DNA of 64,000 nt from Prorocentrum cordatum (Eukaryota; Sar; Dinophyceae; Prorocentrales; Prorocentraceae), in NCBI GenBank assembly GCA_963575745.1, contig CAUYUJ010019336.1, positions 104,501 through 168,500 of the forward strand, written 5' to 3'. The notes beneath the pieces were generated by a model. It ran no database searches. It was not told the DNA's origin and worked only from the letters and a program-made list of their open reading frames with translations. The stretch's first letter is position 1, and each line of letters begins with the position of its first letter. Position numbers and translations under genes: made by a program. This document shows, piece by piece, positions 3,713 to 64,000 of this stretch.

Positions 3713-6700
3713 GGGAGAAGGGGAGGAGGGAGGAGCGGGAGGAGGAGGGGGAGGAGGAGGTGGAGGAGGAGGAAGGAGGAAGGAGGAAGGTGGGACGCGG
3801 GGCGCTGTCTCTTCAAAACGAGGACCCAACACCATAGGATGGTTGGGAATAAAGGGTCCAGGGCGAGGGGGACTGGGGCCAGGGCCAGGGGGGGGAGGCT
3901 GGGTCTAGAGCCAGGGCCAGCGGGGCAAGGGGGGCTGGGGCCAGGACCAGGTGGGGAGGTTGGGTCCAGGGCCAGGACCGGACCAGGGACGACGACGAAC
4001 GAAAATAAAGGGTCCAGGGCGAGGGGGGCTGAGGCCAGGGCCGGAGGGGGGGGGGAGGCTGGGTCCAGGGCCAGGGCCAGCGGGGCAAGGGGGGCTGAGG
4101 CCAAGACCGGGGGGGGAGGTTGGGTCCAGGGCCAGGACCAGACCAGGGACGACGACGAACGAAAATAAAGAGGGGCCGGGGCCAGGGCCGGAGGAGGAGG
4201 CTGGGTCCAGGGCCAGGACCAGAGGGGCGACGACGAACGAAAACAAAGGGTCCAGGGCGAGGGGGGCTGGGGCCAGGGCCAGGGGAGGTGGCAGGGTCCA
4301 GGCTGGGCCAGGACCAGAGGGACGACGACGAACGAAAATAAAAAATCCAGGGCGAGGGGGACTGGGGCCAGGGCCGGGGGGGGCTGGGTCCAGGGCCAGG
4401 ACCGGACCAGGGACGACGACGAACGAAAACAAGTGGCACGCGTGCCCTGGCTCTTGCACAAAGGAGCTGCGAAGGACTGGAGGCCCGGCCCAGGGGGGCT
4501 GCCCTGGGAAGCCTGGACGGAGGGGGGGTCCCAAGGAGGGGTGGCCCAAGGGAGCTGGGGCTCAGGCTCGGGGGGAGGGGCCGACAGGGACGAACCACCA
4601 CGAACCACGAACCACGACGAAAATAAGGATGTCCGCGGCCCAGGGGGGCTGTCCTAGGAAGCCTGGACGGAGCAAGCCTCCGAAGGTGGGCTGCCCAGGG
4701 GGTCTGGGGCTCAGGCTCAGGGGAGGGGCCGAGGGGGGCGAACCACCACGAACCACGAACCACGACGAAAATAAAGATGTCCGAGCTCTAGAGCACAGCT
4801 GTGCAAGAGAATAAAGGGTCCGGAGCGAGGGGGGCTGAGGCCAGGGCCAGGGGTGCGGGGGCCGGGGGGGGGGAGGCCAGGGGCGGGCCAGAGCCAATGG
4901 AGGGAGGGCGAGGACGACGACGAACCACGAACCACGAACCACGAAAATAAAGGAACCGGAGCGAGGGGGGCTGGGGCCAGGGCCAGGAGGGCCAGAGCCA
5001 GGGCGGGGCGAGGCGAGGGGGGCCGGGGCCAGGGCCAGGGGGGCCAGAGCCAAGGGAGGGGGGCGAGGGGAAGCTGGGGCCCAGGCCAGGGGGGCTGGGA
5101 CCAGAGCCAGGGGGGGTGGAGGGGGGCGAGGACGACGACGAACCACGAACCACGAAAATAAAAGGTCCGGGGCGAGGGGGCTGAGGCCAGGGCCAAAGGC
5201 GCCAGAGCATGGGGCGAGGGGGGGGGGCTGAGGCCAGGGCCAGGGGGGGCCAGAGCCAGGAGGGGGGGCGAGGGGACACTGGGACCAGGGCGAAGGGGGC
5301 TGAGGCCAGGGCCAAGGGGGCCAGAGCCAAGGGAGGCGAGGGGGCCAGAGCATGGGGGGCGAGGGGAGCTGGGGGCCAGGCCGGGGGGCCAGAGCCAAGG
5401 GGGGGAAGGCGAACCACGACCACTAACCGCGAAAATACAAGGGTCCAGAGCGAGGGAGGCTGGGGCCAGGGGCCAGGGTGGCCAGGAGCCAGGGGGGGCG
5501 AGGCGAGGGGGGGACTGGGGCCAGGGCCAGGGGGGCCAGAGCAGGGGGCGAGGGGGGGGCTGAGGCCAGGGCCAGGGGAGCCAGAGCCAGGGGGGGGGGC
5601 AAGGGGAAGCTGGGGCCAGGGCGAGGGGGGCTGAGGCCAAGGCCAAGGAGGCCAGAGCCAAGGGGGGAGCGAGGGGGGCCAGAGCGAAGGGGAGAGCGAG
5701 AGGAAGCTGGAGCCAGGGCCAGGGGGGCTGGAGCCAAGGGGGGCAAGGGGAAGCTGGGGCCAGGGCCAGGGGGGCCAGAGCCAATGGAGGGAGGGCGAGG
5801 ACGACGACGAACCAAAAGGGTCCGGAGAGAGGGGGGCTGGGGGCTGGGGCCAGGGTGGCCGGAGGCAGGGGGTGGGGCGAGGCGAGGGGGGCCGGGGCCA
5901 GGGCCAGGGGGGCCAGAGCCAAGGGAGGGGGGCGAGAGGAAGCTGGGGCCAAGGCCAGTTGGGCTCAGGCCAGAGCCAGGACGGGGGGGAGGCGAGGACG
6001 ACGACGAACCACGAACCACGAACCACGAAAATAAAAGGTCCGGGGCGAGGGGGGCTGAGGTCTGGGCCAAGGGGGCCAGAGCATGGGGCGAGGGGGGCTG
6101 AGGCCAGGGCCAGGAGGGCCAGAGCCAGGGGGTGGGGGGGGGTGAGGGGAAGCTGGGGCCAGGGCGAGGGGGGCTGAGGCCAGGGCCAAGGGGGCCAGAG
6201 CCAAGGGGGGGCGAGGGAATAGCAGGAGGCACAGCTTGCTCATGTCCCTGGATGAATGAAGAGTCTGACGTGCGGGGCAAGTATATATAGTATAGAACGT
6301 ACGCCCCAAACGGCGGCTTGAGCCCGAGCCTTGAGCCAGAGCGAAGGGGGGGCGAGGGGGGCCAGAGCGAAGGGGGGGCGAGAGGGGGGGCGAGGGGAAG
6401 CTGGGGCCAGGGCCAGGGGGACTGGAGCCGAGGGGGGCGAGGGCCAGAGCACGGGGCCAGGCAAGGGGGGCTGGGGTGAAGGCCAGGGGGGCCAGAGCCA
6501 AGGGGTGGAAGGGAGGGGGGGCGAGGACGACGACGGGGCGAGGGGGGCTGAGGCCAGGGCCAGGGGGGCGCGAGGGGGGCCAGAGCGAAGGGGAGGGGCG
6601 CTGAGGCCAGGGCCAGGGGGGCCAGAGCCAAGGGGAGGGCGAGGGGAAGCTGGGGCCAGGGCCAGGGGAAGCCGAGGACGACGACGAACCACGAACCACG

Positions 6701-7735: not shown

Positions 7736-8080
7736 GGGCCTAGGCCCCAGGCCGGCACACCCTCCCAGATTTCACCCACCCCCCTTTTGCCCCTCTCCCC
7801 TCCCGGGACCTCAAGGCCTCCTGGGACCAAGTGGGAGAACTGCAACTCACATTTCGACTCCTCCGCCCCGAGTGGACCCCCCAGACCGCCAGCAGGCCCC
7901 CAAGAGGCCCGCAAAAGGCCCAAAAGAGGCCACAAGAGGCCCCCAAACAGCCCCCAAGAGGTTTTAGGTTGGCTCCAAGAGGCGCCCGGGAAGCATGCCA
8001 ATCCCAACAGGCATCCAAGAAGCCTTTGACCCACAACCCATGTACGGTGGCGGTATGAGCCGAAGACCAATAGACCTGGG
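7736..8080. other. Transition segment, no gene seen
   Basis: About 7740-7890 is moderately pyrimidine-rich sequence without recognisable coding. From about 7890 to 7990 it turns into CCCAAGAGG-type decamers, the reverse complement of the decamers that dominate from 8380 onward. It therefore marks a polarity switch at the left border of the large satellite. Confidence 0.5.
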
Positions 8081-10380
8081 CCGGCACAGAAACGGAAAGA
8101 GCGCTTCAGAAACAGAAACCGAAATTACTCACACCACCGTTCGTACTGGGAGCCTTGACGTTGAGAGCTTGTTACGTCACCCCTCGCTCTTGGGAGCCTT
8201 GGTGTTCAGAGATTGTTGCGTTGCCGCCCGTTCCTGAGCCTTGGCTGGGCCTTGGTGTCAGGAACTTGTTACGTCACCGCTCTCTGCTGGGAGCCTTGGT
8301 CGTATCAGCTTGTGTACGTCACCGTTCGCTCTTGGGAGCCTTGGTGTGAAGAGCTTTTTGCGTTACCGATCGCTCTCTATTTGGCGTCTCTGGGCCTTCT
8401 TGGGAGTCCTATTGAGGCCCTTGTCGGGCCCTTTTGGAGGCCTCTTGGGAACCTCTTGGGGGCCTCTTGGGGCTTCTTGGGGGGCTCTGGGGGCCTCCTG
8501 GGAGCTTCTTGGGGCGAAAGGCTAGACTTTTCGGTTCGTGGTCCCCCTCTTGGGGCCGTCTTGGGGCCCTCTTGGGCCGTCTTGGGCGCCTCTTGGGCCG
8601 TCTTGGAACCCTCTTGGGCCGTCTTGGAACCCTCTTGGGCCGTTTTGGGGGCCTCTTGGGAGCCTCTTGGGCCGTCTTGGGGCGGTCTTGGGGGCCTCTT
8701 GGAGCGTCTTCAACGCAGTGAAAGCCGAAAAGCCTTGTATATTAAAAATGTACATTTTTCACATAGTAAATCAATGATTTTCGCCTCCCGGTGGCCTCTT
8801 GGGACGCCTCTTGCGGGCCTCTTGGGGCTTCTTGGGGGGCTCTGGGGGACTCCTGGGAGCGTCTTGGGGCGAAAGGCTAGACTTTTCGGTTCGCGGTCCC
8901 CCTCTTGGGGCCATCTTGGGGCCCTCTTGGGCCGTCTTGAGGCGCCTCTTGGGCCGTCTGGGGGCCCTCTTGGGCCGTTTCGAGGGCCTCTTGGGAGCCT
9001 CTTGGGCCGTCTTGGAGCGGTCTTGGGAGCCTCTGGGGCCGTCGTCAACGCCGTGAAAGGCGAAAAGCCGTAGATGCTAAAAATATACCTTTTCCTTTGG
9101 AAAATATATGATTTTGGCCTCTTAGGGCCCTCTTGGGACGCCCCTTGGGCGCCTCTTGGGGGCCTCTTGGGGGCCTCTTGGGCCGTCTTGGGCGCTCTTG
9201 GGCTCTCTTGGAGCGCTCTTGGGCCGTCTTGGGGGGGAACCCGAAAAAAACCGAAAAACATGCAAAAACCTAGGGAAAATCCCAAAACGGCCATTAACAC
9301 CCATATGGGCACGCTACCCCCCTCTCCTGGAACCCCTCCCTTTAGGGCTTCGCCCACACCAGAACGTCATCACTCGTACCTCGCTCTTTCCGTTACCTGG
9401 GCCGGCACAGAAACGGAAAGAGCGCTTCAGAAACAGAAACCGAAATTACTCACACCACCGTTCGTACTGGGAGCCTTGGCGTTGAGAGCTTGTTACGTCA
9501 CCCCTCGCTCTTGGGAGCCTTGGTGTTCAGAGATTGTTGCGTTGTCGCCCGTTCCTGAGCCTTGGCTGGGCCTTGGTGTCAGGAACTTGTTACGTCACCG
9601 CTCTCTGCTGGGAGCCTTGGTCTTATCAGCTTGTTTACGTCACCGTTCGCTCTTGGGAGCCTTGGTGTGAAGAGCTTTTTGCGTTACCGATCGCTCTCTA
9701 TTTGGCGTCTCCTCTTGGGAGTCCTATTGAGGCCCTTGTCGGGCCCTTTTGGAGGCCTCTTGGGGGCCTCTTGGGGGCCTCTTGGGGCTTCTTGGGGGGT
9801 TCTGGGGGCCTCCTGGGAGCTTCTTGGGGCGAAAGGCTAGACTTTTCGGTTCGTGGTCCCCCTCTTGGGGCCGTCTTGGGGCCCTCTTGGGCCGTCTTGG
9901 GCGCCTCTTGGGCCGTCTTGGAACCCTCTTGGGCCGTTTTGGGGGCCTCTTGGGAGCCTCTTGGGCCGTCTTGGGGCGGTGTTGGGGGCCTCTTGGAGCG
10001 TCTTCAACGCAGTGACAGCCGAAAAGCCTTGTATGCTAAAAATGTACATTTTCTCATAGGAAATCAATGATTTTCGCCTCTCGGTGGCCTCTTGGGACGC
10101 CTGTTGGGAGCCTCTTGGGGCTTCTTGGGGGCTCTGGGGGCCTCCTGGGAGCGTCTTGGGGCGAAAGGCTAGACTTTTCGGTTCGTGGTCCCCCTCTTGG
10201 GGCCGTCTTGGGGCCCTCTTGGGCCGTCTTGGGCGCCTCTTGGGCCGTCTGGGGGCCCTCTTGGCCGTTTTGGGGGGCCTCTTGGGAGCCTCTTGGGCCG
10301 TCTTGGGGCGGTCTTGGGAGCCTCTGGGGCCGTCGTCAACGCCGGGAAAGGCGAAAGGCCGTAGATGCTAAAAATCCGCC
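8081..10380. repeat. Higher-order satellite, units 1 and 2 (about 1.3 kb)
   Basis: Each unit begins CCGGCACAGAAACGGAAAGA (8082, 9402). It continues with five degenerate 52-54 bp monomers, several with TTACGTCACC, then long arrays of 10-12 bp CCTCTTGGGG / CCGTCTTGGGG elements. These are interrupted by AT-richer spacers such as AAAGCCGAAAAGCC...TAAAAATGTACATTTTT. Marker spacing is 1320 bp. Leu/Gly/Pro/Trp-rich frames here repeat GPSWGPLG-like motifs and come directly from the decamer, so they are not reported as genes. Confidence 0.9.
8744..8759. other. Palindromic AT-rich spacer core of the satellite
   Basis: AAAAATGTACATTTTT is a perfect 16-bp palindrome inside otherwise GC-rich repeats. Related spacers (AAAATGTACGTTTT, AAAATATACGTTTT and similar) recur near 9080, 10040, 11315, 19076, 20375, 21304, 22586, 22920, 23850 and 25000, usually just after an AAAGCC-AAAAGCCGT segment. 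Confidence 0.6.
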
Positions 10381-15634: not shown

Positions 15635-17062
15635 TCACTGGCCGCACGACTTCTGCCGATGTGCGAGAAGATTCATGTCGACATCGTTTACTGACGAAGC
15701 GTGCATAAACACCTTATTAGCATACCTGCGAAGACATGATACGTATTTGCCGTCGGCAGCTCTGTATGGGTGGCAAAACAAGGACGGCATTCTCGAGTGC
15801 AAATCAAGCATTACGCTCTGGTCGACCTTCTGCGGGACTTGGGCGAGCAAATCAGCAGGAGCCAGGTACTGGTCCCATAGCTGGTTGCGCAGGAACCCTG
15901 ACTGGAAATAAGGGCCTGGGGCAAAGATCGACTGTGGCGGGTCGTTCCAAAACACAGTCCAACGCAACGTCATCATATCGATAAGTGTGAAGCGCGAAAC
16001 ATTATGAACCGCCTCCAGGTAGAATATGTCTCCCTTTTGAAAAGCACACTCCCTAGTGCTATCGATTCCTGACGAGAAAAGGCTGCCAGTCAACCATTTC
16101 AATCCTATTTCACTCCAGTCCAGAGTGGGTGGTCTTACGTACGGGCCAGGTTTTACATTCAGCTCCTGGCTGTGCGACCCTGGTTTCACAACGAACACGG
16201 GGTGCTGCATTGTGAACAGAAGCTGTGGCGTAGCAAAATATTGGCCACCCAAGCGTTTCGCAAAGAGCTTTAATGACTTCGCGCCGGGATGCGTATGAGA
16301 ACCAAGGCTGTCTGGATCAAACGAGCCTGCCCCTGGTGTTTCGTATTCTTTCGAGAAGAGTGTGGTGGTTCCGGTTGGCAAATTGTACCCTACCTGCCCT
16401 GTGGTCGTGCCTTCCCAATAAGCGGTGCTGAGGGGACGGAAACCGTAACGCCGATCAGCATCAATAACAAGATCCATAATGACTACTAGCTTGTATTCTT
16501 GAGCGTCCCCCACCAAACGATCATCATCAATGCGCAGTCCACAGGTGACTTCAGTCTGAGCGGGGTAATACTCTGCCCAACCGTCTGTCCTGTTCAGTAC
16601 AGTGTAGCGGTGGGAGAACTTGCTCATGCCGCCAGCGCCAGCCACTGTTAGGAAAGAAGCACGGTGCTCAAACACCTCCTGCTCGTACCACAGGTCTGCG
16701 ATATTGGTCCTGCACACGATGTGATGCACGTGAATGGGCGGCCACGAAAAAAGCTGGCTACCCGTCTTATCTGTAACCATTAGGTGTGCCGACTTCAACC
16801 AGAAGCCATCGTCAGGGATTGGAAAAGACATGGCACCCGATCGACCGTCTCGGCTTTGAAATTTCTTGCCGGGGCCGAGGGTCAAATCAAACTTGACGGT
16901 CCACTGCTCGGAGCCCTCTGCCCCCCCCCCGATATCGCGAGTGCACTTGTCGAGATAGAACTGAGATCGCTGTTTGCTATGGTGCAGCAGCGACTTCGTC
17001 GCTGGACAGCTGAAGGCTAGCTGGAAGCAGGCACTAAAGCAATACAAACGACAAGGCCGCAT
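15635..17062 (-). CDS. Secreted HVHH/HTH-motif protein, possibly copper monooxygenase- or SURNod19-like
   Basis: Uninterrupted 475-codon frame. The first in-frame ATG is at 17062; the frame extends further upstream only from non-ATG codons. The N-terminus (MRPCRLYCFSACFQLAFSCPA) resembles a signal peptide, so the product may be secreted or enter the ER. Two histidine clusters stand out: PPIHVHHIV at about residues 109-116 (His111, 113, 114) and GSHTHPG at about 254-260 (His256, 258). Type II copper, ascorbate-dependent monooxygenases (PHM/DBH family) use a His-His pair and an HTH pair to bind two coppers. Plant SURNod19-type proteins share a similar HH segment. The match is by motif only and the overall fold is unproven. 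No introns are evident, and satellite DNA flanks the gene on its upstream side. Confidence 0.6.
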   Translation of the reverse strand: MRPCRLYCFSACFQLAFSCPATKSLLHHSKQRSQFYLDKCTRDIGGGAEGSEQWTVKFDLTLGPGKKFQSRDGRSGAMSFPIPDDGFWLKSAHLMVTDKTGSQLFSWPPIHVHHIVCRTNIADLWYEQEVFEHRASFLTVAGAGGMSKFSHRYTVLNRTDGWAEYYPAQTEVTCGLRIDDDRLVGDAQEYKLVVIMDLVIDADRRYGFRPLSTAYWEGTTTGQVGYNLPTGTTTLFSKEYETPGAGSFDPDSLGSHTHPGAKSLKLFAKRLGGQYFATPQLLFTMQHPVFVVKPGSHSQELNVKPGPYVRPPTLDWSEIGLKWLTGSLFSSGIDSTRECAFQKGDIFYLEAVHNVSRFTLIDMMTLRWTVFWNDPPQSIFAPGPYFQSGFLRNQLWDQYLAPADLLAQVPQKVDQSVMLDLHSRMPSLFCHPYRAADGKYVSCLRRYANKVFMHASSVNDVDMNLLAHRQKSCGQ

Positions 17063-17109
17063 CGTGGTTGGGAAACTCTGAGCAGCAAAGGCTCCAGCCA
17101 AAGCCCCCT

Positions 17110-18169
17110 TCTTGAGTCAAGATGGCTGCGCTACGGAACCGTCTGGAAGCCATCCGAAGCTCTCTTGGAGCCGTCTTGGGGCCCTCTGGGGCCGTTTGGG
17201 GGCCCTCTTGGGCCGTCTTGGGGCCCTCTGGCCGCTTCACTCGAAAAATACATGGAAACACACCATGGGAGCCGCCCAGGAGCCGCTTCACTCGAAAAAA
17301 CAAACCGCCTCGCCCCTCCCCTGGAACCCTCCCTTGAGGGCATCGCCCCAACTCAACGTACATCCCTCGTACCTCGCTCTTTCCGTCACCTGCTTGCCAT
17401 GGGGACGGAAAGCGCATTTATCTTGTGAGGGCGCGAGTTCGTTGGCTTAGTGTCTTGGAGCCCTGTTTGTGTTAAGGCTTCGGTAAGACATGCAAAAATC
17501 TACCAACCAACCTTGCGAACATCCATACGTGTTACATTTCCAGGCCTTCCTGGGTGTCCTTTTGGGGCTCTTTTGGGCCGTCTTGGGGCCCTTTTGGGCC
17601 GTCCGGGGCCTTCCTGTGCGTTGGTGCGACATACAAAATTCGAGCAACAAACTTTGGGTCTGGGCATTCCTGGGGGTCCTTTTGGTGTTCTTTTGGGCCG
17701 TCTCGGGGCCCTTCTAGGCCGTCCCGGGGCCCTCTCGGGCCGTCTTGGCGGGCTTGGGCCGTCTTGGGACCTTCTGGGGGCCCTCCTGGGTCGCCTTAGG
17801 GACCTCGTGTGGTAGGAACCTTTTGGGACCATCAGGGAACTCTCTTGGGCTCTCTTGCAGCTCTCTTGGGCCGTCTTGGGGGCCTCTAGGGCCGTCTCGG
17901 GGCGGTCTTGGGGACCTCCTGGGCCGCCTCGGACGCTGTGAAGACCAAAGAAGCGAATATGCTCAAAAATGCACGCTTTTCAAAAGGAATGGGACGAGTT
18001 TTGCCTCTTGGGGTCCCCGTTGGGGGCCTCTGGGGGCCTCTTGGGCTGTCTTGAAGCCGTACTGGGCCCTCTTGGAGCGCTCTTGGGCCGTCTTCGGGCC
18101 CTCTTGGACCTCTCCGACGCCGTCTTGGAGGTTTCTCGGGCACTTTGGGGCTGTCTTCGAAATTAGGGC
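17110..18169. repeat. Diverged decamer satellite, plus orientation
   Basis: CCGTCTTGGGGCCCTCTTGGG-type arrays, with one weak copy of the TTTCCGTCACCTG marker near 17385 and a segment 17460-17660 in which TTGGGTCTGGGCATTCCTGG-like pieces alternate with decamers. No gene seen; long frames follow the decamer. Confidence 0.75.
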
Positions 18170-18440
18170 CATTTCGCCCCAAGACGCTCCCAGGAGGCCC
18201 TCACAGACCCCCAAGAAGCCCCAAGAGGCCCCCAAGAGGCCTCCAAAAGGGCCCGACAAGGGCCCCAATAGGACTTCCACGAAGGCCCAGAGACGCCAAG
18301 AGTGATCAGTAACGCAAAAAGCTCTTCACACCAAGGCTCCCAAGAGCGAACGGTGACGTACACAAGCTGATAAGACCAAGGCTCCCAGCAGAGCGGTGAC
18401 GTAACAAGTTTCTGACAACAAGGCCCAGCCAAGGCTCACA
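18170..18440. repeat. Inverted satellite block
   Basis: From 18170 the sequence reads as the reverse complement of the neighbouring units: GCCCCAAGACGCTCCCAGG, then CCCAAGAGG decamers, then GGTGACGTAC and GGTGACGTAA monomers. At about 18440 (GGCTCACAGGAACGGAAAGA) it flips back to plus orientation in the middle of the marker element. It is therefore a 270-bp local inversion or inverted insertion. Confidence 0.8.
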
Positions 18441-21400
18441 GGAACGGAAAGAGCGCTGCAGAAACAGAAACCGAAATGACTCACACCACCCTTCGTACCG
18501 GGAGCCTTGGCGTTGAGAGCTTGTTACGTCACCCCTCGCTCTTGGGAGCCTTGGTGTTCAGAGATTGTTGCGTTGCCGCCCGCTCCTGAGCCTTGCCTGG
18601 GCCTTGGTGTTAGGAACTTGTTGCGTCACCGCTCTCTGCTGGGAGCCTTGGTCTTATCAGCTTGTTTACGTCACCGTTCGCTCTTCGGAGCCTTGGTGTG
18701 AAGAGCTTTTTGCGTGACCCATCGCTCTTTATTTGGCGTCTCTGGGCCTTCTTGGGAGTACTATTACGGCCCTTGTCGGCCCTTTTGGAGGCCTCTTGGG
18801 GGCCTCTTGGGGGCCTCTTTGGGATTTCTTGGGGGGCTCTGGGGGCCTCCTCGGAGCTTCTTGGGGCGAAAGGCTAGACTTCTCGGTTCGTGGTCCCCCT
18901 CTTGGGGCCGTCTTGGGGCCCTCTTGGGCCGTCTTGGGCGCCTCTTGGGCCGTCTTGGCGCCTTCTAGGGCCGTTTAGGGGGCCTCTTGGGAGCCTCTTG
19001 GGCCATCTTGGGGCGATCTTGGGGGCCTCTTGGACCGTCTGCAACGCCGTGGCAGCCGAAAAGCCGTGAATGCTAAAAATGCACGTTTTCCCATAGAAAA
19101 TCAATGATGTTGGCCTCCTGGTGGCCTCTTGGGACGCCTCTTGGGGGCCTTTGGGGGCTTCTTGGGGGGCTCTTGGGGCCTCCTGGGAGCGTCTTGGGGC
19201 GAAAGGCTAGACTTTTCGGTTCGTGGTCCCTCTCTTCGGCCGTCTTGGGGCCCTCTTGGGCCGTCTTGGGCACCTCTTGGGCCGTCCGGGTGCCCTCTTG
19301 GGTTGTTTTGGGGGCCTCTTGGGAGCCTCTCGGGCCGTCTTGGGGCGGTTTGGGGGCCTCTTGGGCCGTCGTCAACGCCGTGAAAGCCAAAAAGGCCGTA
19401 TGCGCAAAAAATATACGTTCTCCTCCGGAAAATTGAAGATTTGGGCCTCCAGGGGCCCTCTTGGGACGCCCCTTGGGCACCTCTTAGGGGCCTGTTGGGG
19501 GCCTCTTGGGCCGTCTTGGGCGGTCTTGGGCTCTCTTGGAGCGCTCTTGGGCCGTCTTGGGGGGGAACCCGAAAAACATGCCAGAACCCGAGGGAAAACC
19601 CGAAAACGACCATCAACACTCATTTGTCCCCCCTACGCCCCCCCCTGGACCCCCCCCCTTTAGGGCTTCGCCCACACCAGAACGTCATCACTCGTGAATC
19701 GCTCTTTCCGTTACCTGGCCCGGCACAGAAACGGAAAGAACGCTGCAGAAACAGAAACCGAAATGACTCACACCACCCTTCGTACCGGGAGCCTTGGCGT
19801 TGAGAGCTTGTTACGTCACCCCTCGCTCTTGGGAGCCTTGGTGTTCAGAGATTGTTACGTTGCCGCCCGCTCCTGAGCCTTGCCTGGGCCTTGGTGTCAG
19901 GAACTTGTTGCGTCACCGCTCTCTGCTGGGAGCCTTGGTCTTATCAGCTTGTTTACGTCACCGTTCGCTCTTGGGAGCCTTGGTGTGAAGAGCTTTTTGC
20001 GTGACCCATCGCTCTTTATTTGGCGTCTCTGGGCCTTCTTGGGAGTCCTATTACGGCCCTTGTCGGCCCTTTTGGAGGCCTCTTGGGGGCCTCTTGGGGG
20101 CCTCTTTGGGATTTCTTGGGGGGCTCCGGGGGCCTCCTGGGAGCTTCTTGGGGCGAAAGGCTAGACTTTCGGGTTCGTGGTCCCCCTCTTGGGGCCGTCT
20201 TGGGGCCCTCTTGGGCCGTCTTGGGCGCCTCTTGGGCCGTCTGGGGGCCCTCTTGGGCCGTTTTGGGGGCCTCTTGGGAGCCTATTGGGAGCCTCGTGGG
20301 CCGTCTTAGGGCGGTATTGGGGGCCTCTTGGGCCGTGGTCAACGCCGCGAAAGGCGAAAAGCCGTAGATGCTAAAAATATACGTTTTCCTAAAGAAAATC
20401 TATGATTTTGGCCTCCTGGGGCCCTCTTGGGACGCCCCTTGGGCGCCTCTTGGGGGCCTCTTGGGGGCCTCTTGGGCCGTCTTGGGCTGTCTGGGGCTCT
20501 CTTGAAGCGCTCTTGGGCCGTCTTGAAGGAGAATCCGCCCCCAAAACGGCCAGTAACACTCATTCGTCCGGCCTACCCAACCCCCCTGGAACCCCCCCTT
20601 TAGGGCTTCGCCCACACCAGAACGTCATCACTCGTACCTCGCTCCTTCCGTTACCTGGCCCGGCACAGAAACGGAAAGAACGCTGCAGCAACAGAAACTG
20701 AAATTACTCACACCACCGGTCGTACCGGGAGCATTGGCGTTGAGAGCTTGTTACGTCACCCCTCGCTCTTGGGAGCCTTGGTGTTCAGAGATTGTTGCCT
20801 TGCCGCCCGCTCCTGAGCCTTGCCTGGGCCTTGGTGTCAGGAACTTGTTGCGTCACCGCTCTCTGATGGGAGCCTTGGTCTCATCAGCTTGTTTACGTCA
20901 CCGTTCGCTCTTGGGAGCCTTGTGTGAAGAGCTTTTTGCATTACCGATCGCTCTCTATTTGGCGTCTCTGGGCCTCCTTGGGAGTCCTACTGGGGCCCTT
21001 GTCGGGCCCTTTTGGAGGCATCTTGGGAACCTCTTGGGAGCCTCTTGGGGCTTCTTGGGGGGCTCCGGGGGCCTCCTGGGAGCTTCTTGGGGCGAAAGGC
21101 TAGACTTTCGGGTTCGTGGTCCCCCTCTTGGGGCCGTCTTGGGGCCCTCTTGGGCCGTCTTGGGCGCCTCTGGGGCCGTCTTGGCGCCCTCTTGGGCCGT
21201 TTTGGAGGCCTCTTGGGAGCCTCTTGGGCCGTCTTGGGGCGGTCTTGGGGGCCTCGTGGACCGTCCTCAACGCCGCGAAAGCCGGAAAGCCGTGCATGCT
21301 AAAAATGTACGTTTTCCAATGGAAAATCTATGATTAGGACCTCCAGGTGGCCTCTTGGGACGCCCCTTGGGCGCCTCTTGGGGGCCTCTTGGGGGGCTGT

Positions 21401-24400
21401 GGGGGCCTCCTGGGAGCGTCTTGGGGCGATAGGCCAGACTTTTCGGTTCGTGGTCCCCCTCTTGGGGCCGTCTTGGGGCCCTCTTGGGCCGTCTTGGGCG
21501 CCTCTTGGGCCGTCTGGGGGCCCCCCCGGGCCGTCCTGGGGGCCTCTTGGGAGCCTCTTGGGAGCCTCTTGGGCCGTCGTGGGGCAATCTTGGGGGCCCC
21601 TTGGGCCGTCGTCCACGCCGCGAAAGGCGAAAAGCCGTAGATACAAGAAATATACGTTCTCCTCCGGAAAATCGAAAACCCCGCCCCCCCCCCCTGGGAC
21701 GCCCCTTGGGCGCCTCTTGGGGGCCTCTTGGGGGCCTCTTGGGCCGTCTTGGGCGGTCTGGGGCTCTCTTGAAGCGCTCTTGGGCCGTCTTGAGGGAGAA
21801 TCCGAAAAACATGCAAAAACCCTAGGGAAAAACCCCAAAACGGCCATTAACACTCATTCGTCCGGGCTACCCACCCCCCCTGGAACCCCCCCTTAAGGGG
21901 CTTCGCCCAACACCAAAACGTCATCGCTCGTACCTCTCTCTGTCCGTTACCTGGCCCGGCACAGAAACGGAAAGAGCGCTGCAGCAACAGAAACCGAAAT
22001 TACTCACACCACCGTTCGTACTGGGAGCCTTGGCGTTGAGAGCTTGTTACGTCACCCCCCGCTCGTGGGAGCCTTGGTGTTCAGAGATGGTTGCGTTGCC
22101 GCCCGCTCCTGAGCCTTGCCTGGGCCTTGGTGTCAGGAACTTGTTACGTCACCACTCTCTGCTGCGAGCCTTGGTCTCTATCAGCTTGTTTACGTCACCG
22201 TTCGCTCTTGGGAGCCTTGGTGTGAAGAGCTTTTTGCGTGACCGATCGCTCTTTATTTGGCGTCTCTGGGCCCTCTTGGGAGTCTTATTGGGGCCCTTTA
22301 CGGGCCCTTGTGGAGGCCTCTTGGGGGCCTCTTGGGGGCCTCTTGGGGCTTCTTGGGGGGCTCTGGCGGCCTCCTGGGAACTTCTTGGGGCGAAAGGCTA
22401 ACTTTTCGGTTCGAGGTCCCGTCTTGGGGCCCTCTTGGGCCGTCTTGGGCGCCTCTGGGGCCATCTTGGCGCCCTCTTGGGCAGTTTTGGGAGCCTCTTG
22501 GGAGCCTCTTGGGCCGTCTTGGGACGATCTTGGGGGCCTCTTGGACCGTCGTCAACGCCGCGAAAGCCGACAAGCCGTGCATGCTAAAAATGTACGTTTA
22601 CCCATCGAAAATGTATGATTTTGGCCTCCTGATGGCCTCGTGGGACGCCTCTTGGGAGCCTCTTGGGGCTTCTTGGGGGGCTGTGAGGGCCTCCCGGGAG
22701 CGTCTTGGGGCGATAGACTAGACTTTTCGGTTCGTGGCCCCCCTCTTGGGGCCGTCTTGGGGCCCTCTTGGGCCGTCTTGGGCGCCTCTTGGGCCGTCTG
22801 GGCGCCCTCTTGGGCCGTTTTGGGGGCCTCTTGGGAGCCTCGTGGGCCGTCTTGGGGCGGTCTTGGGAGCCTCTTGGGCCATCGTCAACGCCGTGAAAGG
22901 CGAGAAGCGGTAGATGCTAAAAATATACGCTTTCTTATGGAAAATCCAAAATTTTGGCCTCCTGGGGCACTCTTGGGACGCCCCTTGGGCGCCTCTTGGG
23001 GGCCTCTTGGGAGCCTCTTGGGGGCCTCTTGGGCCGTCTTGGGCGGTCTGGGGCTCTCTTGGAGCGCTCTTGGGCCGCCCCGGGGGGAAACCCGAAAAAT
23101 ATGCCAAAACCCGAGGGATCACCCCCAAAACGGCCATTAACACTCATTCGTCCGGCCTACCCACCCCCCCTGGAACGGCACAGAAACGGAAAGAGCGCTG
23201 CAGCAACAGAAACCGAAATTACTCACACCACCGGTCGCACGGGGAGCCTTGGCGTTGAGAGCTTGTTACGTCACCCCTCGCTCTGGGGAGCCTTGGTGTT
23301 CAGAGATTGTTGCGTTGCCGCCCGTTCCTGAGCCTTGGCTGGGCCGTGGTGTCAGGAACTTGTTACGTCACCGCTCTCTGCTGGGAGCCTTGGTCTTATC
23401 AGCTTGTGTACGTCACCGTTCGCTCCTGGGAGCCTTGGTGTAAAGAGCCTCTTGCGTTACCGATCGCTCTGTATTTGGCGTCCCTTGGTCTTCCTATTGG
23501 GGCCCTTTTCGAGCCCTTTTGGAGGCCTCTTGGGACGCCTCTTGGGGGCCTCCAGGGGCTTCTTGGGGGGCCCTGGGGGCCTCCTGGGAGCTTCTTGGGG
23601 CGAAAGGCTAGACTTTTCTGTTCGTGGTCCCCCTCTTGGGGCCATCTTGGGGCCCTCTTGGGCCGTCTTGGGCGCCTCTTGGGCCGTCTTGGGGCCCTCT
23701 TGGGCCGTTTGGGGGGCCTCTTGGGAGCCTCTTGGGCCGTCTTGGGGCGGTCTTGGGGGCCTCTTGGAGCGTCTTCAACGCAGTGAAAGCCGAAAAGCCC
23801 CTTGGAGCGTCTTCAACGCAGTGAAAGCCGAAAAACCGTGTATGCTAAAAATGTACCTTTTCCCATCGGAAATCCGTGTTTGGGGCCTCTTGGTGGCCTC
23901 TTGGGACGCCTCTTGGGGGCCTCTTGGGGCTTCTTGGGGGCCTCTTGGGGCTCTTGGGGCGAAAGGCTAGACTTTTCGGTTCGTGGTCCCCCTCTTGGGG
24001 CCGTCTTGGGTCCATCTTGGGCCGTCTTGGGCGCCTCTTGGGCCGTCTTGGGGCCCTCTTGGGCCGTTTTGGGGGCCTCTTGGGAGCCTCCGGGGCTGTC
24101 GTGGGGCGGTCTTGGGGGCCTCTTGGGCCGTCGTCAACGCCGTGAAAGCCGAAAAGCCGTATATGCAAAAAAAAAAAAAAAAAAAACGTTTTCCGGTGGA
24201 AAATCCATGATTTGGGCCTCTTGGGGCCCTCTTGGGACGCCCCTTGGGCGCCTCTTGGGGGCCTCTTGGGGACCTCTTGGGCCGTCTTGGGCGGTCTTGG
24301 GCTCTCTTGGAGCGCTCTTGGGCCGTCTTGGGGGGGAAACCAGAAAAGCATGCAAAACCTGGGCCCGGCACAGAAACGGAAAGGGCGCTGCAGCAACAGA

Positions 24401-25519
24401 AACCGAAATTACTCACACCACCGGTCGCACGGGGAGCCTTGGCGTTGAGAGCTTGTTACGTCACCCCTCGCTCGTGGGAGCCTTGGGGTTCAGAGATGGT
24501 TGCGTTGCCGCCCGTTCCTGAGCCTTGGCTGGGCCGTGGTGTCAGGAACTTGTTACGTCACCGCTCTCTGCTGGGAGCCTTGGTCTTATCAGCTTGTGTA
24601 CGTCACCGTTCGCTCCTGGGAGCCTTGGTGTAAAGAGCTTTTGGCGTTACCGATCGCTCTGTATTTGGCGTCTCTGGGCCTTCGTGGGAGTCCTATTGGG
24701 GCCCTTGTAAAACCCTTTTTGGACGTCTCTTGGGGGCCTCTTGGGGGCCGCTTGGGGCTTCTTGGGGGGCTGTGGGGGCCTCCTGGGAGCGTCTTGGGGC
24801 GAAAGGCTAGACTTTCGGGTTCGTGGTCCCCCTCTTGGGGCCGTCTTGGGCGCCTCTTGGGCCGTCTTGGCGCCCTCTTGGGCCGTTTGGGGGGCCTCTT
24901 GGGAGCCTCTTGGGCCGTCTTGGGGCGGTCTTGGGGGCCTCTTGGAACGTCGTCAACGCCGTGAAAGCCGCAAAGCCGTGCATGCTAAAAATGCACGCTT
25001 CCCAATAGAAAATCTATGATTTGGGCCTCCTGATGGCCTCGTGGGACGCCTCTTGGGGGCCCCTTGGGGCTTCTTGGAGGGCTGTGGGGGCCTCCCGGGA
25101 GCGTCTTGGGGCGATAGGCTAGACTTTTCGGTTCGTGGTCCCCCTCTTGGGGCCGTCTTGGGGCGTCTTTGGCGCCTCTTGGGCCGTCTGGGGGCCCTCT
25201 TGGGCCGTTTTAGGGGCCTCTGGGGAGCCTCTGGGGCCGTCTCGGTCTTGGGGGCCTCTTGGGCCGTCGTCAACGCCGTGCAAGGCGAAAAGTCGTATAT
25301 GCTAAAGATATACGCTTTTTTCTAGAAAATCGATGAGTTTGGCCTCTTTGGGCCCTCTTGGGACGCCCCTGGGGCCCCTCTTGGGGGCCTCTTGGGGGCC
25401 TCTTGGGCCGTCTTGGGCGGTCTTGGGCTCTCTTGGAGCGCTCTTGGGCCGTCTTGAAGGAGAACCCGAAAAATATGCAAAAACCCATGGGAAAGCCTCC
25501 CTAAAACGGCCATTTACAC
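18441..25519. repeat. Higher-order satellite, about six units of 0.94-1.3 kb
   Basis: The marker GGCACAGAAACGGAAAGA occurs at about 19722, 20662, 21958, 23177 and 24367, with a truncated one at 18437. Spacings are 1290, 940, 1296, 1219 and 1190 bp. Each unit has the ACGTCACC monomers, the CTTGGGGCGAAAGGCTAGAC segment, CCTCTTGGG decamer arrays, AT-rich spacers and a CGCCCACACCAGAACGTCAT end piece. A 20-base A run lies near 24167-24186, and a 35-bp local duplication near 23765-23835. Frames repeating PSWGPLGPSWA are by-products. No gene seen. Confidence 0.9.
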
Positions 25520-25925
25520 TCATTCGTCCGGCCTACCCCCCCCCTGGAACCCCCCCTTTAAGGGCTTCGCCCACACCAGAACGTCATCACTCGTACCTCG
25601 CTCTTTCCGTTACTCATTCGTCCGGCCTACCCCCCCCCCTGGAACCCCCCCCTTAAGGGCTTCGCCCACACCAGAACGTCATCACTCGTACCTCGCTCTT
25701 TCCGTTACTCATTCGTCCGGCCTACCCCCCACCCTGGAACCCCCCCTTAAGGGCTTCGCCCACACCAGAACGTCATCACTCGTACCTCGCTCGTCCTGTT
25801 AACCCGAGGGAGAACCCGAAAACGGCCATTTACACTCATTTGTCCAGGCTACCCCCCTCCCCTGGAACCCCTCCGTTTAGGGCTTCGCCAACACCAGAAC
25901 GTCATCACTCGTACCTCGCACAGGG
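25520..25925. repeat. Tandem copies of a 94-bp satellite end piece
   Basis: CATTCGTCCGGCCTACCCCC starts at 25521, 25615 and 25710 (period 94-95 bp), with a diverged copy at about 25835. Each copy ends CAGAACGTCATCACTCGTAC. This is an expansion of the segment that closes each larger unit upstream. Confidence 0.9.
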
Positions 25926-32210: not shown

Positions 32211-33360
32211 CCCTCTCTGCTGTCAAGCCCCCTTGTAGCGTCGAGGAAATGGCACGCCTGCCACGCCCTGGGAGCCTGCAACGCACAGGGCCCCCACCCC
32301 GAGCGCACCCCTGTGGCGTCGAGGAAATGCCACGCCTGCCACGCCCTGGGAGCCTGCAGCGCACCCCTTCTGGTGTCGAGGAAATGCCACGCCTGCTAGG
32401 CCCTGCGACATTGGCGCGTATAGAGACCGCGGTGGGCCCCCACCCACAGCGCACCCCGTGGCGTCGAGGAGACGCCACTCCTGCTAGGCCCTGCGACATT
32501 GGCGCGTATAGAGACCGCGGTGGGTCCCCACCCCCAGCGCACCGCCCGTGGCGTCGAGGAAATGCCACGCCTGCTAGGCCCGGCGACATTGGCGCGTATA
32601 GAGACCGCGGTGGGCCCCCACCCCCAGCGCACCCCCTGTGGCGTCGAGGAAATGCCACTCCTGCTAGGCCCTGCGACATTGGCGCGTATAGAGACCGCGG
32701 TGGGCCCCCACCCCCAGCGCACCCCCTGTGGCGTCGAGGAAATGCCACGCCTGCTAGGCCCCTGCTACATTGGCGCGTATAAACCGCGGTGGGCCCCCAC
32801 CCCCAGCGCACCCCCTGTGGCGTCGAGGAAACTGCCACTCCTGCTAGGCCTGCACATTGGCCGCGTACACCGCCCCCCACCCCCAGCGCACCCCCTTGTG
32901 GTGGCGTTGAGGAAATGCCACTCCTGCTAGGCCCTGCGACCCGCGCGTATAGAGACCGCGGTGGGCCCCCACCCCCAGCGCACCCCTTGTGGCGTCGAGG
33001 AAATGCCACGCCTGCTAGGCCCTGCGACATTGGCGCGTATAGAGACCGCGGTGGGCCCCCACCCCCAGCGCACCCCCTGTGGCGTCGAGGAAATGCCACT
33101 CCTGCTAGGCCCTGCGACATTGGCGCGTATAGAGACCGCGGTGGGCCCCCACCCCCAGCGCACCCCCTGTGGCGTCGAGGAAATGCCACGCCTGCCACGC
33201 TTTGCGAGACCGAAACGCATAGGGCCCCCACCCACAGCGCACCCCCTGTGGCGTCGAGGAAATGCCACGCCTGCCACGCTTTGCGAGACCGAAACGCGTA
33301 GGGCCCCCACCCCCAGCGCACCCCCTGTGGCGTCGAGGAAATGCCACGCCTGCCGAGCTC
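32211..33360. repeat. Tandem repeat of 57-90 bp, 14 copies
   Basis: GCGTCGAGGAAATGCCAC-type starts occur at about 32238, 32316, 32373, 32461, 32551, 32641, 32731, 32820, 32904, 32992, 33082, 33172, 33251 and 33330. The dominant unit is exactly 90 bp and contains GCGACATTGGCGCGTATAGA and CCGCGGTGGGCCCCCACCC; shorter variants lack the central piece. As 90 is a multiple of three, both strands carry long repetitive open frames with a 30-residue period. Coding is unproven. Confidence 0.9.
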
Positions 33361-45773: not shown

Positions 45774-45794
45774 CTTGAGCCAAAACGGCTACGC
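45774..45794 (-). other. Relict dinoflagellate spliced leader (SL)
   Basis: The minus strand reads GCGTAGCC-G-TTTTGGCTCAAG, 19 of 21 matches to DinoSL. It sits 70 bases upstream of ATG 45704 in the sense direction, exactly where the SL sits in a mature mRNA. This marks the gene at 42600-45704 as a probable product of mRNA retroposition. Confidence 0.85.
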
Positions 45795-46419
45795 CACAGT
45801 GACCAATGATATGACCATATGACCCCCTGCAGACACTGTAAAACAGACAGCCACTGAGCACTGAGAGTGGTGCTAATTGACGAGAGTCTTGGAGAGAAGC
45901 CTCAGAATCCCTGGACATTCCTCTCCCCCCTCTTCCCCATTCTGCGACAGAACGCCCATTCAGACTCTGGCTCTGGCTAGCGCCGCCGTTGCTCATCGAG
46001 GCTCATCCGAGGCTCATCCCCTGCCCTCGTCAGGCTCTAGCTGCGTGGGGCCTGGGTGACTTAGGCGGGGACCTGGAACCAGGAGGGGGTCTCACAGGAG
46101 TCAAGACATAATCACAAGTCTGAGCTTTCGATGGGGCAACAGGCGAATGTTGTCTCAACCGATATTGTTTTGCAGATTGCGGGAGGCCCACCAAAAATCT
46201 GGAGCCTCGTGAGCCACGCGTGGCTCAAAGTTTACAGATTGCGAGTGCACTGCCCCTCGCGATCACTGCATGGTCGACGGTCATCGTCGCGTGAGGGTGC
46301 TGCACTGCTGCTCGTGGAGCTCAGTCCGCCTCGAGGGTGCTGTTCGGCGAAGCCACTGGAGACTCCACGAGGCAGAACTCATCCGCGGATCGCTGGGAAG
46401 AGAAGTCTTTCCACTTGGA
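45795..46419. other. Intergenic between two minus-strand genes
   Basis: 625 bases without a supported gene. It holds repeated GGCTCATCGAGGCTCATCCG-like words (45993-46017). Any promoter for the downstream gene would lie here, but no motif is recognised. Confidence 0.4.
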
Positions 46420-56628: not shown

Positions 56629-57869
56629 TGAGAGTTCGAATCCCTAACCTCCACAATCAACACATTTGCCTACCTGGTTTGAAACATCGAGTCCTGAACC
56701 GCTACAAGAGGCGACATGTATAGTCATGTTGATACGGGCCCATAGGCGTGGTCCTTTAAAGGGTTCTACTTGGCACCAAACCTCTTCTTAGGACCCCTTC
56801 AACCTCTGGGCCCCCCTAAAACGCTGAAAGCGATAAGAAAACCCTCGTCCAGGAGCCCGAGAGCCGCTGACCCTCCTAACACAACGAAGCTGGCCAACGT
56901 GCAACTTACCAGAGGAGAAGGAGGAAGAGGAGGAGGAGGAGGGGGAGGAGAAGTTGTTGCTTTTCTCCCCGCGGCGCACGCAGCACGTCCCATCATCCGC
57001 AATCCCTGTCAAGGCGCGCCGCCAGGCGGGCACGCGCCCAATGGAAACAAACAGGCGGAGGAAGCAGCATAGGAGGAGGAGGAGGAGGAGGAGGAGGAGG
57101 AGGAGGAAGAGGCAAAGGGGTTGTCCGCCACGCGGTACCCACTGAGGCACCTGGCGCGCGGGCGGGGCAGCACGGCGAGGCCCCCCCCCCCAAGGAGGCG
57201 GCAGGAGGCCACGACCGAGGGGAGGGGGCGCACTCGTCTCAGTGGGAGGACTGCAGTCGCCCGACAAGCGGGGTCCATGTCCCACAAGGCGCAGGAGCCA
57301 GTCGCATCCGCCTGCGCCCAACTGAGACTGGGACCCACAACACCAGGCACGTGGACGGGCGAAAACGAACGGGCCGACTCCTCTAGAGAGCGAGCAAGGG
57401 GCACCTCATCACCCCGAGAAAGCAAGCACGGCGGCGGGGGCCACGGCGGGGCGGCGGGGCGGCGGGGGCGGCAGCACGCGCGGCTCGCGCCGTCGCTCAC
57501 CCCAAGCCTTCCCACCCACCCCGCAGGCGAGAGAGGCAGCAGCAGGAGCAGGGACGGAGAGAGACGCAAACATAGGGAACAATCCCACAAATCTCCCGTG
57601 ATTCAGCAGCCCGATGGCCCAATACACATTGGGACACAATGCATACTCGGCGCGACACATGACACTGGAAAAGAAAACAAAACGCGGGCTCCACGGCGCC
57701 CACCAACGGGGCAAGGATGCAAAGAGTCAACCCGCGCGGAAAAAGAGGAAGGAGGCAAGACCCAATGGCAGGCGAAGCCAGAAGAGCGACCGCCGAGGGC
57801 AGGGGGCGCGACCACAGGTGCCTGGCCACAAGCCTCGAGAGGGGCCGCGTTGCCGAATCAGCACTCCGA
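56629..57869. other. Intergenic, purine-rich microsatellites, no gene supported
   Basis: 56917-56952 and 57071-57112 are GGA-rich. The remainder is GC-rich with overlapping frames on both strands and no recognisable domain. The left part would contain the promoter of the gene at 50991-56628, but no motif is recognised. Confidence 0.4.
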
Positions 57870-58030
57870 GGGCGATAAGCATCACGGCGTCGACTGTACC
57901 AGGGAACAGGGTGCACACAGCGCGGGTGCTCCACTCGCTCCACGCTGGAGAATCGGAGAGGGAGGATCCCCGCACGCGGGCCACGGCACGGCCAGGCACA
58001 ACACGACCATGGCGAGAGGGGAGACAAGAC
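57870..58030 (-). pseudogene. Second LINE 5' fragment (start of ORF1)
   Basis: Imperfect copy (about three quarters identical) of 63636-63785, the 5' leader and ORF1 start of the LINE. Shared words are CATGGCGAGAGGGGAGA, CGCGGGCCACGGCACGGCC and GCGGGTGCTC. The minus-strand frame starts M-VVLCLAVPWPACG, parallel to M-EESRQAVPWPAHG in the LINE. No SL relic is visible upstream. It is either a neighbouring degraded copy in the same orientation or a remnant of a tandem insertion. Confidence 0.6.
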
Positions 58031-58389
58031 CGGGGGCCAGAACCGAACTCGCGGAAGACCCAGAACAGCAGAAGCAAAAAGGACAGACAAACTGTTCAGG
58101 ACCCCGAGGAACGGAGGACACAGTCATTGGCGCCCCCCCAAAAAAACCCGGGACACTTTCTTATTCCTGGCCAGTAGCCTCAGACGAGCATGGAAGACCT
58201 GTTCAGGTGGAAGAGCAGCGCCCAAACGGCGGCGGGAGTGCGTCTTCAGAAATGCACCCAGGATAGCCCCCGCAGCGACACCACGATCCAGCCCCCACTT
58301 CGGGCCCAGAAGGGCCGACATCAAAAACCACTGGTCATCGTTCTACAAGATGTCCTTCCGCCGCCCTGGCAGACTCGAAACGCCTAGGG
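58031..58389. other. LINE 3' flank / spacer, nothing else recognised
   Basis: Between the second ORF1 fragment and the LINE C-terminal region. It may contain the LINE 3' untranslated sequence; no poly(A) tail or target duplication is recognisable. Confidence 0.35.
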
Positions 58390-62765
<4,376 letters not shown>

Positions 62766-63789
62766 TGCCAGCCGACGGGCCGTCGTCGTGAATCATCGCT
62801 CTCAAAACAAGGACAGGGATGGACCCGTTGATCACATAGATAGCACCCCCAAGCCCCGTAGATCCGACACGCTCCTGGCCGAAGATATGCGCCAATGCCT
62901 GCCTCATGTTCCCCAGGTAGTAAAGTAGTTCGCGAGGCGACTGTGGGAGGTCACAGCGGGCGCGGAGCTCAAGGTCAGGGCCGCCCGCAGGATTCGGAAA
63001 CATGAACGGGCCTTCCGTCATCGTCTTCGCATGAAACGTACCAGTCATCAGATTGTTAGGGACGTCGAGACAAAAAAAAACGTAGCACTACAGTCAAAAC
63101 GCCTTGGCCTGGATCTGGACACGGTCAGCCTCAGGAGCACACTTGCCCACAATGCGGGCGACTGCAGCACGCAACGGTGGCTCCAAGAAGTGGACGCTTG
63201 AAACCAAATACTACCAACCTCGTGGGATTGCCGACATCATTGAGCTCGGCCCGACGGCGGACCTGACGCGGAAAGTCATCTTCAGGGGGCGGGGTAGGAC
63301 ACGAACCCCGAATCGCCGCCAAATCCTCCTTCATCACCTTAAACATCGCAACCAACTCTTCCTTCATCTCCTTCTCTGCCACCTCACGATCCTGGATAGC
63401 CTACACCAGAGCCTGTTCCTGGATGGCCCTGAGTTGGTCAAAGTTCCGCTGGGTATCTTGGACAAGATCGGCGCGAGCCTTCTGCAACGTCTGGAAATTC
63501 TGTTCTGCTAAGATCATCTGGCCCTGGATTCCCGAGATATGTCTGTTTATACCCTTCACCCCAAGATCCAGCTGCGATGTCAGTGAATCAACACTGGAGG
63601 AGAGAGGCTGAATCAGCTTTTTGGGGGGCGTTCAGCATCGCGGTGTCGACCGTGCCTGGGGACGGGGTGCACGCGGTGCGGGTGCTCCCCTCGCTCCCCG
63701 CTGATGAAGTCGGACAGGGGAGACCGTGCGCGGGCCACGGCACGGCCTGACGCGACTCCTCCATGGCGAGAGGGGAGAGAAGACAGAGG

Positions 63790-63810
63790 CTTGAGCCAAA
63801 ACGGCTACGG
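63790..63810 (-). other. Relict dinoflagellate spliced leader (SL) at LINE 5' end
   Basis: The minus strand reads CCGTAGCC-G-TTTTGGCTCAAG, 20 of 21 matches to DinoSL; the single difference is the same A-to-G seen at 45774-45794. It is followed by a 25-base leader and ATG 63764. The SL marks the 5' boundary of the retrotransposon. Confidence 0.9.
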
Positions 63811-64000
63811 AGGAGGAGGAGGAGGGTGAGGAGGAGGAGGAGGAGGAGGAGGAGGAGGAGGACGAGGAGGAGGACGTGGGAGGAGGAGGAGGAGGAGGAG
63901 GAAGAGGAGCGCCAGCTCGGCGAGCGGCCGTCGCGCCCGAGCCAGGCAGGGCACAGGGGAGGAGGTGGAGGGCAGGGAGGGGCAGGGGGCGGAGGGAGCG
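63811..64000. repeat. (GGA)n microsatellite at right edge
   Basis: GGA/GAG repeats from 63811 to about 63907 directly abut the LINE 5' end, then GC-rich sequence runs to the end. No gene seen. Confidence 0.9.

Follow-up and report, generated by a model that had tools for sequence, protein, structure and literature searches.

The DNA analysed here is a single stretch of 64 kb (the window; 60.7% GC) that is rich in tandem repeats. Its minus strand carries a nearly full-length, dead copy of what is, judging from its sequence, an L1-like LINE in DNA of dinoflagellate type, and the 5' end of this copy coincides with the spliced leader (SL) of dinoflagellates, DinoSL. The features of the element and its surroundings, in the 5'-to-3' direction of the element, are as follows.

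63812 to 63902, minus strand: CCT-rich simple repeat adjoining the SL, the 5' flank of the element, with arrays of (CCT)≥6 at 63879 to 63902 and 63830 to 63862
63790 to 63811, minus strand: DinoSL, 21/22 positions; exon boundary ...CTCAAG intact, next bases CC, no GT donor
63765 to 63789, minus strand: 25-nt 5' leader, CCTCTGTCTTCTCTCCCCTCTCGCC, between the SL and the ATG
62662 to 63764, minus strand: LINE ORF1, disrupted (frameshifts and a stop), as located by tblastn with the protein P0050; stop codon TGA at 62664 to 62662
58124 to 62661, minus strand: LINE ORF2, broken; APE-type endonuclease, reverse transcriptase (RT) and, by eye, a Cys/His motif near the end
59320 to 60105, minus strand: simple-repeat block (CT/CTGT-rich) interrupting ORF2; approximate limits, set by eye
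57870 to 58030, minus strand: segment B, a second leader and ORF1 start (ATG at 58010) with no SL in front; 129/162 identities
57072 to 57107, minus strand: (CCT)12 array ~1 kb past the ORF2 stop; presumed placement

The ORF2 frame, the start of which is not fixed, enters the repeat block at ~60.1 to 59.3 kb and then resumes up to a TGA stop at 58126 to 58124, both placed by eye. Of the 7995 candidates scored in a search with the stitched ORF2 (703 aa), a single one matched at E ≤ 0.001, the 1163-aa protein P0001 (E 3.1e-36; 27% identity over 73%), in which Pfam identified endonuclease and RT domains (RT, PF00078). When P0001 was aligned to the minus strand by tblastn, an APE-type endonuclease was found ahead of the RT at 62393 to 62118 (E 2.9e-6), followed by RT segments at 61781 to 60828, 60810 to 60679, and 60363 to 60202 (E 0.024 for the last). 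P0001 belongs to a set of 49 proteins related at E ≤ 1e-20 (itself included; 7990 candidates scored), 41 of which match the element by tblastn at E ≤ 0.01, while none of the 49 matched the window outside the element. The PDB structure closest to a profile of 23 P0001 relatives is the LINE-1 ORF2 protein (E 1.2e-76). On the endonuclease ORF of the window itself, Pfam family PF03372 remained below its cut-off (E 0.089; 13 bits against 24.5), the ORF covering the RT region (61805 to 60996) had no Pfam match on its own, and none of ten long window ORFs could be assigned to a Pfam family at E ≤ 0.01. The copy is therefore well decayed, and its identity as a LINE rests on the metagenomic relatives. 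Stops, frameshifts, and the long simple-repeat block break the element, a condition absent from the initial annotation of the locus, as are the other SL relics and the second ORF1 start described below. A collection of viral contigs scanned with P0001, the alignment of 23 relatives, and P0050 gave 2, 9, and 2 pattern matches, respectively, and no relative of the LINE.

ORF1 is likewise broken, and 361 aa were stitched by eye for the protein search. The only match at E ≤ 0.1 among 5667 candidates was P0050, a metagenomic protein of 380 aa (E 1.2e-97, 50% identity, 94% coverage; BLASTP alignment from query residue 21). ORF1 comprises a disordered N terminus, a long coiled coil, and a C-terminal part for which the P0050 model is of low confidence; the AlphaFold model of P0050 has a disordered N terminus and one long helix (residues 39 to 167), with low confidence for the rest (mean pLDDT, 54). 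Pfam identified neither an RNA-binding domain nor a DNA methyltransferase in P0050. The two-ORF plan, the coiled-coil ORF1, the APE endonuclease, and the RT are those of L1-type elements.

The ATG at 63764 to 63762 lies exactly 25 nt past the SL. On the DNA, P0050 residues 1 to 48 were aligned by tblastn at 63764 to 63627, residues 9 to 218 at 63766 to 63155, and residues 208 to 380 at 63186 to 62665, the match continuing to the last residue of P0050. The alignment of residues 1 to 48, which starts from base 63764, has an E value of 3.6e-5 on the 1501-base 5' stretch; on the whole window, with composition adjustment switched off, the value is 0.003. With the default adjustment, these residues gave no alignment at E ≤ 10 on the whole window, and the P0050 alignments obtained cover residues 26 to 218 and 207 to 380, residue 26 corresponding to base 63697. 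Seven of the first 14 residues of ORF1 are identical to those of P0050 (for the 13 residues behind Met, P is ~8e-5, a post hoc figure). Because residues 1 to 48 align there, half of the first 14 residues are identical, and the stricter alignment reaches residue 26, this ATG is likely to be the start of ORF1. The initial annotation had proposed a 25-nt leader followed by the ORF1 start, and the placement of Met1 of P0050 on the ATG at 63764 supports this.

The minus-strand sequence from 63811 to 63790 is TCCGTAGCCGTTTTGGCTCAAG, and the DinoSL reference is DCCGTAGCCATTTTGGCTCAAG. With D read as T, 21 of the 22 positions agree, and among the fixed bases, 20 of 21 do, the single deviation from the canonical leader being an A to G change. 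DinoSL occurs three times in the window at ≤3 mismatches (at 63790, 45774, and 702), always on the minus strand, and a fourth time (at 17111) if ≤4 mismatches are allowed. No match at ≤3 mismatches was obtained in 100 dinucleotide shuffles of the window. Since the window is rich in tandem repeats, a control with letter-shuffled leaders on the unshuffled window was added, in which none of 1000 shuffled leaders matched at ≤3 mismatches and 8 matched at ≤4. A chance match at 63790 is ruled out by these two controls, and the 20/21 DinoSL match at 63790 to 63810 reported in the initial annotation is thus confirmed.

The bases that follow the SL at 63790 are CCTCTGTC, so that the leader extends just to the splice boundary and has no GT donor behind it. 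By contrast, what appears to be an SL RNA gene on metagenomic contig L003 runs on from the SL into GTACGCAACC. As the SL at 63790 stops at the splice boundary and both the GT donor and the SL RNA body are absent, a DinoSL RNA gene at this position is ruled out. LINE enzymes are known to make template jumps onto small RNAs, and the RT could by this precedent have switched from the LINE RNA to free SL RNA during insertion; however, such a jump should often carry over bases of the intron or break off at random within the exon, whereas the junction here is the exact end of the SL exon, and we regard a template jump as very improbable. No tandem SL relic, in the form of a second match at ≤6 mismatches, was found in the 25-nt leader or in the flank up to position 64000.

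Segment B, which begins 113 nt past the ORF2 stop, is 80% identical to positions 63784 to 63626, and on the element side the similarity reaches to 5 nt from the SL. A blastn comparison of the sequence upstream of the SL with that upstream of segment B yielded nothing in register and only short out-of-register matches (best E value, 0.027). Homology running upstream past the SL, the observation that the initial annotation had named as speaking against its reading, was accordingly not seen in this comparison with one fragment. In the 34 nt upstream of segment B, the best alignment to the SL scores 6 against a background mean of 5.0, a score that 29% of 4000 random windows reach, so that the idea that segment B starts with a decayed SL is unsupported. 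Within the window, one of the two 5' ends of the family carries an SL, and this is a single SL. Direct repeats at both ends occur in the Dictyostelium element TRE5-A. Segment B would be explained by a 5' region of the family that was never spliced, by a head-to-tail neighbour, or by a repeat in the 3' end of the LINE, and it may also be a chance fragment.

We estimate a probability of roughly 85% that the copy at 63790 was reverse-transcribed from an SL-trans-spliced LINE mRNA, inserted, and later decayed. An SL-trans-spliced template is proposed because the SL stops at the exon boundary, the 25-nt 5' untranslated region (UTR) and the ORF1 start follow it, and the homology to segment B ends within 5 nt of it. 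A source LINE would have been transcribed, and the host spliceosome would have trans-spliced the 22-nt DinoSL to a 3' splice site that lay 25 nt ahead of ORF1. The mature LINE mRNA would then have been reverse-transcribed to its very 5' end, and the cDNA would have been inserted, apparently at a CCT-rich microsatellite, where the copy decayed. The parts and their register, from the SL with its exact exon boundary to the remains of both ORFs, are seen in the DNA; that the template was trans-spliced and capped, that the enzyme of the LINE itself carried out a target-primed insertion, and that a microsatellite was the target are presumptive elements of this scheme. The evidence comes from one near full-length element in the window. 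Counted against an SL-bearing template are, besides this single copy, the lack of an SL and of a junction AG at segment B, the weak N-terminal alignment of P0050, the one differing SL base, the lack of a fixed target-site duplication, and the below-cut-off Pfam score of the window's own endonuclease ORF. The initial annotation had made SL-bearing RNA the template for LINE insertion in this organism; the exact SL boundary, the register of ORF1, and the end of the homology to segment B 5 nt away support this for the copy at 63790 and for that copy only.

On its other side, the SL adjoins the CCT-rich repeat, and the TCC before GTAG can be assigned either to the repeat or to the SL. CCT arrays of six or more units occur 25 times in the window, on both strands, and they flank the element on both sides; the (CCT)12 array at 57072 to 57107 is possibly the 3' limit of the element or a duplicate of the target. 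These arrays would fit insertion of the LINE into a CCT-rich microsatellite, but their abundance in the window weakens this reading. Because the flank is a microsatellite, a target-site duplication could not be fixed. The junction thus lies in the kind of sequence where assemblies err, and an assembly or cloning artefact might have joined a cDNA to genomic sequence. The decay of the LINE through stops, frameshifts, and inserted repeats nevertheless implies that it is genomic and old, and the other SL relics in the window share the pattern, which leaves to an artefact a probability close to nil.

These other relics are all on the minus strand, and each stands upstream of an ORF. The SL at 45774 to 45795 has two mismatches and lies 69 nt ahead of an ATG that opens a glycine/arginine-repeat protein, an arrangement resembling that of a retrogene. 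The SL at 702 to 723, also with two mismatches, is located 80 nt before the ATG of a broken ORF in which coiled-coil-like stretches were seen by eye and which extends beyond the window edge. This ORF could be the ORF1 of another retroelement; a copy of the ORF1 of the present LINE is unsupported, as the best BLASTP match to P0050 has an E value of 0.25. The SL at 17111 to 17131 has four mismatches, a level that 8 of 1000 shuffled leaders equal somewhere in the window, and it stands 48 nt before the ATG of an intronless ORF of 488 aa (15635 to 17101, minus strand) with no Pfam match; the two together are likely to be an older retrogene. The window thus seems to contain retroposed messages of several kinds, which share one strand. 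The A to G change is common to the relics at 63790 and 45774; this suggests that the host has a variant leader, coincidence being the alternative.

With four SL relics at ≤4 mismatches in 64 kb, the SL at 63790 could have belonged to another retroposed mRNA that merely neighbours the LINE. However, it is on the same strand as ORF1 and 25 nt before it, whereas by our own estimate the chance of finding one of four relics in the 100 nt ahead of a particular ATG is ~0.3%, and the P0050 alignment leaves scant room for an intervening gene. A neighbouring retrogene is disfavoured on these grounds, and we consider it very improbable as the source of the SL.

The trans-spliced template leaves open two possible roles for the SL-headed form. 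In the first, the LINE mRNA underwent retroposition just as other dinoflagellate mRNAs do, and the copy was dead on arrival, while a promoter and a splice acceptor persist in the unspliced 5' region of the progenitors; to this we give even odds. The three SL relics upstream of other ORFs (the one at 17111 with four mismatches) speak for it, in that mRNA retroposition seems to be common here. An unspliced region of this kind may be represented by segment B: in its spacer, the 40 nt richest in pyrimidines have a pyrimidine fraction of 0.775 (top 5% of windows) and a T fraction of 0.525 (top 0.3%), and this T-rich stretch is compatible with a putative splice-acceptor region. Against this, the 40 nt immediately before the segment B junction are ordinary, with a pyrimidine fraction of 0.65 that 16% of windows reach, and the matching junction lacks an AG (TTCTGG followed by CCCCCGG). 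No intact progenitor was seen in the window, and segment B is a fragment of 160 bp.

In the second, the SL-headed form itself replicates, the host adding a leader to each transcript at or inside the inherited SL, and the element's own 5' UTR or promoter is reduced to ~25 nt or less. This refines the proposal of the initial annotation that the element acquires a host-supplied 5' end at every cycle, and it does not exclude the other readings; we think it possible but unlikely. ORF1 immediately follows the 25-nt leader, which leaves little space for a conventional 5' UTR promoter, and DinoSL has been proposed to carry a promoter-like TTT(G) motif that is retroposed together with genes (PMC6050394, in the portion consulted). 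However, a single copy was found, and fragment B has no SL. In addition, the acquisition of a new DinoSL by retrogenes is described in the consulted part of PMC12014239 as leaving a 15-nt relic of the old one, whereas the copy here has one SL and no such relic, so that it records no earlier cycle. A still more doubtful extension is that the LINE has lost its own 5' UTR and promoter altogether. Its live copies would then begin at the host SL, which would be restored in each cycle and would bring a cap and a leader for translation, together with a splice acceptor, the AG being either within the SL or at its end; a TTTT-type promoter box might come with it as well. Segment B would perhaps be a trace of head-to-tail copies that trans-splicing has cut apart.

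DinoSL relics are established marks of retroposed mRNAs (PMC12014239, PMC6050394, PMC7245778, and PMC8045281, as far as their consulted portions go), and their presence on dinoflagellate retrogenes is credited to Slamovits and Keeling (2008) in the relevant passages of the first three. As in those retrogenes, a genomic DinoSL heads here a sequence copied back from mRNA, but the cargo in the passages concerned consists of host genes, whereas the present cargo is the message of the LINE itself, with the remains of both ORFs. The trans-spliced transcripts of retrotransposons have been considered in other hosts. In flatworms, 597 loci with partial SLs, primarily LTR elements and LINEs, were set aside as possible insertions of trans-spliced transcripts (PMC12582326, in part), and six SL-merged transposable elements were noted in Schistosoma mansoni, for which chimeric assembly was also allowed (PMC5832876, in part). 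The cause proposed in the two excerpts, insertion of SL-trans-spliced retrotransposon transcripts, is the same as here. The differences are that the hosts belong to another phylum, that the loci were discarded from the analysis of SL genes and trans-splicing, and that no complete SL before an ORF1 start is described in the excerpts.

In Hydra, an SL is present on ~30% of the Iso-Seq reads from transposable elements (30.9% in one strain and 29.7% in another), according to the excerpt of PMC12220107, and host trans-splicing therefore acts on the RNA of such elements there too. That evidence is from transcripts, and the excerpt describes no genomic SL-headed copies, whereas the copy here is genomic. 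The trypanosomatid elements ingi and L1Tc are likewise LINEs in hosts that trans-splice their mRNAs, but in the account taken from part of PMC8190864 they have a 77-nt promoter and a hepatitis delta virus (HDV)-like ribozyme at the 5' end and unspliced, translatable transcripts, while the 5' end here is the SL, 25 nt from the ATG.

Among dinoflagellates, LINEs are abundant in Symbiodinium (SymbioLINE; PMC5890265, in part). SymbioLINE-Dnmt differs from the present element by a DNA methyltransferase in ORF1, of which P0050 has none by Pfam, and the term "spliced leader" is never mentioned in the main text of that article as far as it was available. In endogenous viral elements (EVEs) of Symbiodinium derived from RNA viruses, a dinoSL was found ≤500 bp from 6 of 26 RdRp ORFs, and LINEs were proposed as the machinery (PMC10235124, in the portion available). 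The SL is a mark of retroposition in both cases, but in the portion cited it lies within 500 bp of the viral ORFs, whereas in the present element it coincides exactly with the 5' end. In the open-access literature, as far as its consulted portions extend, we found no description of a dinoflagellate LINE starting at an SL. The general idea has thus already been published, in the parts of those articles cited above, for flatworm and schistosome retrotransposons, and the SL-headed dinoflagellate LINE is an apparent addition.

To propagate by inserting RNA copies, a LINE needs a working 5' end each time, and in a trans-splicing host the leader could supply one. An SL-headed LINE is in principle ordinary for such a host, although the present one is unusually clean in its register. 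One fossil with the SL, the leader, and ORF1 in register indicates that the LINE message was trans-spliced and could be copied to its very end. This bears on the question of which RT makes the many SL-tagged retrogenes of dinoflagellates, since the LINE message has the same mark; in the consulted section of PMC6050394, the type of element behind dinoflagellate retroposition was called unknown and LTR elements were favoured. The value of the finding is that renewal of the 5' end by the host becomes directly countable in a full genome.

Large families of tandem and interspersed repeats were also identified in the window, at positions 1920 to 3711, 8074 to 10375, 18437 to 25613, and 32357 to 33354. 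On a contig with 22% GC from a viral collection (IMGVR_UViG_3300045993_001077; L001), two exact DinoSLs lie 147 nt apart in the reverse-complement orientation, in the region of ~4244 to 5380. Pfam identified one glycosyltransferase ORF on this contig. The second DinoSL heads a stretch of ~50% GC that contains a 254-aa ORF and ends in a short A-run, within AT-rich DNA; it has the appearance of a dinoflagellate mRNA inserted into viral DNA by retroposition, unless the contig is chimeric.

A prokaryote collection was scanned with the SL pattern only, and two contigs binned as Dehalococcoidia are of note among its matches. In L002 (CAJXDJ010000191.1; positions 1 to 52), an exact DinoSL adjoins a (CAT)n array at the contig end, again an SL beside a triplet repeat, and this is probably a chimeric join. 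The SL RNA gene-like sequence of L003 (JAKUNN010000063.1), with its DinoSL at 4334 to 4354, is likely to represent eukaryotic contamination of the metagenome-assembled genome.
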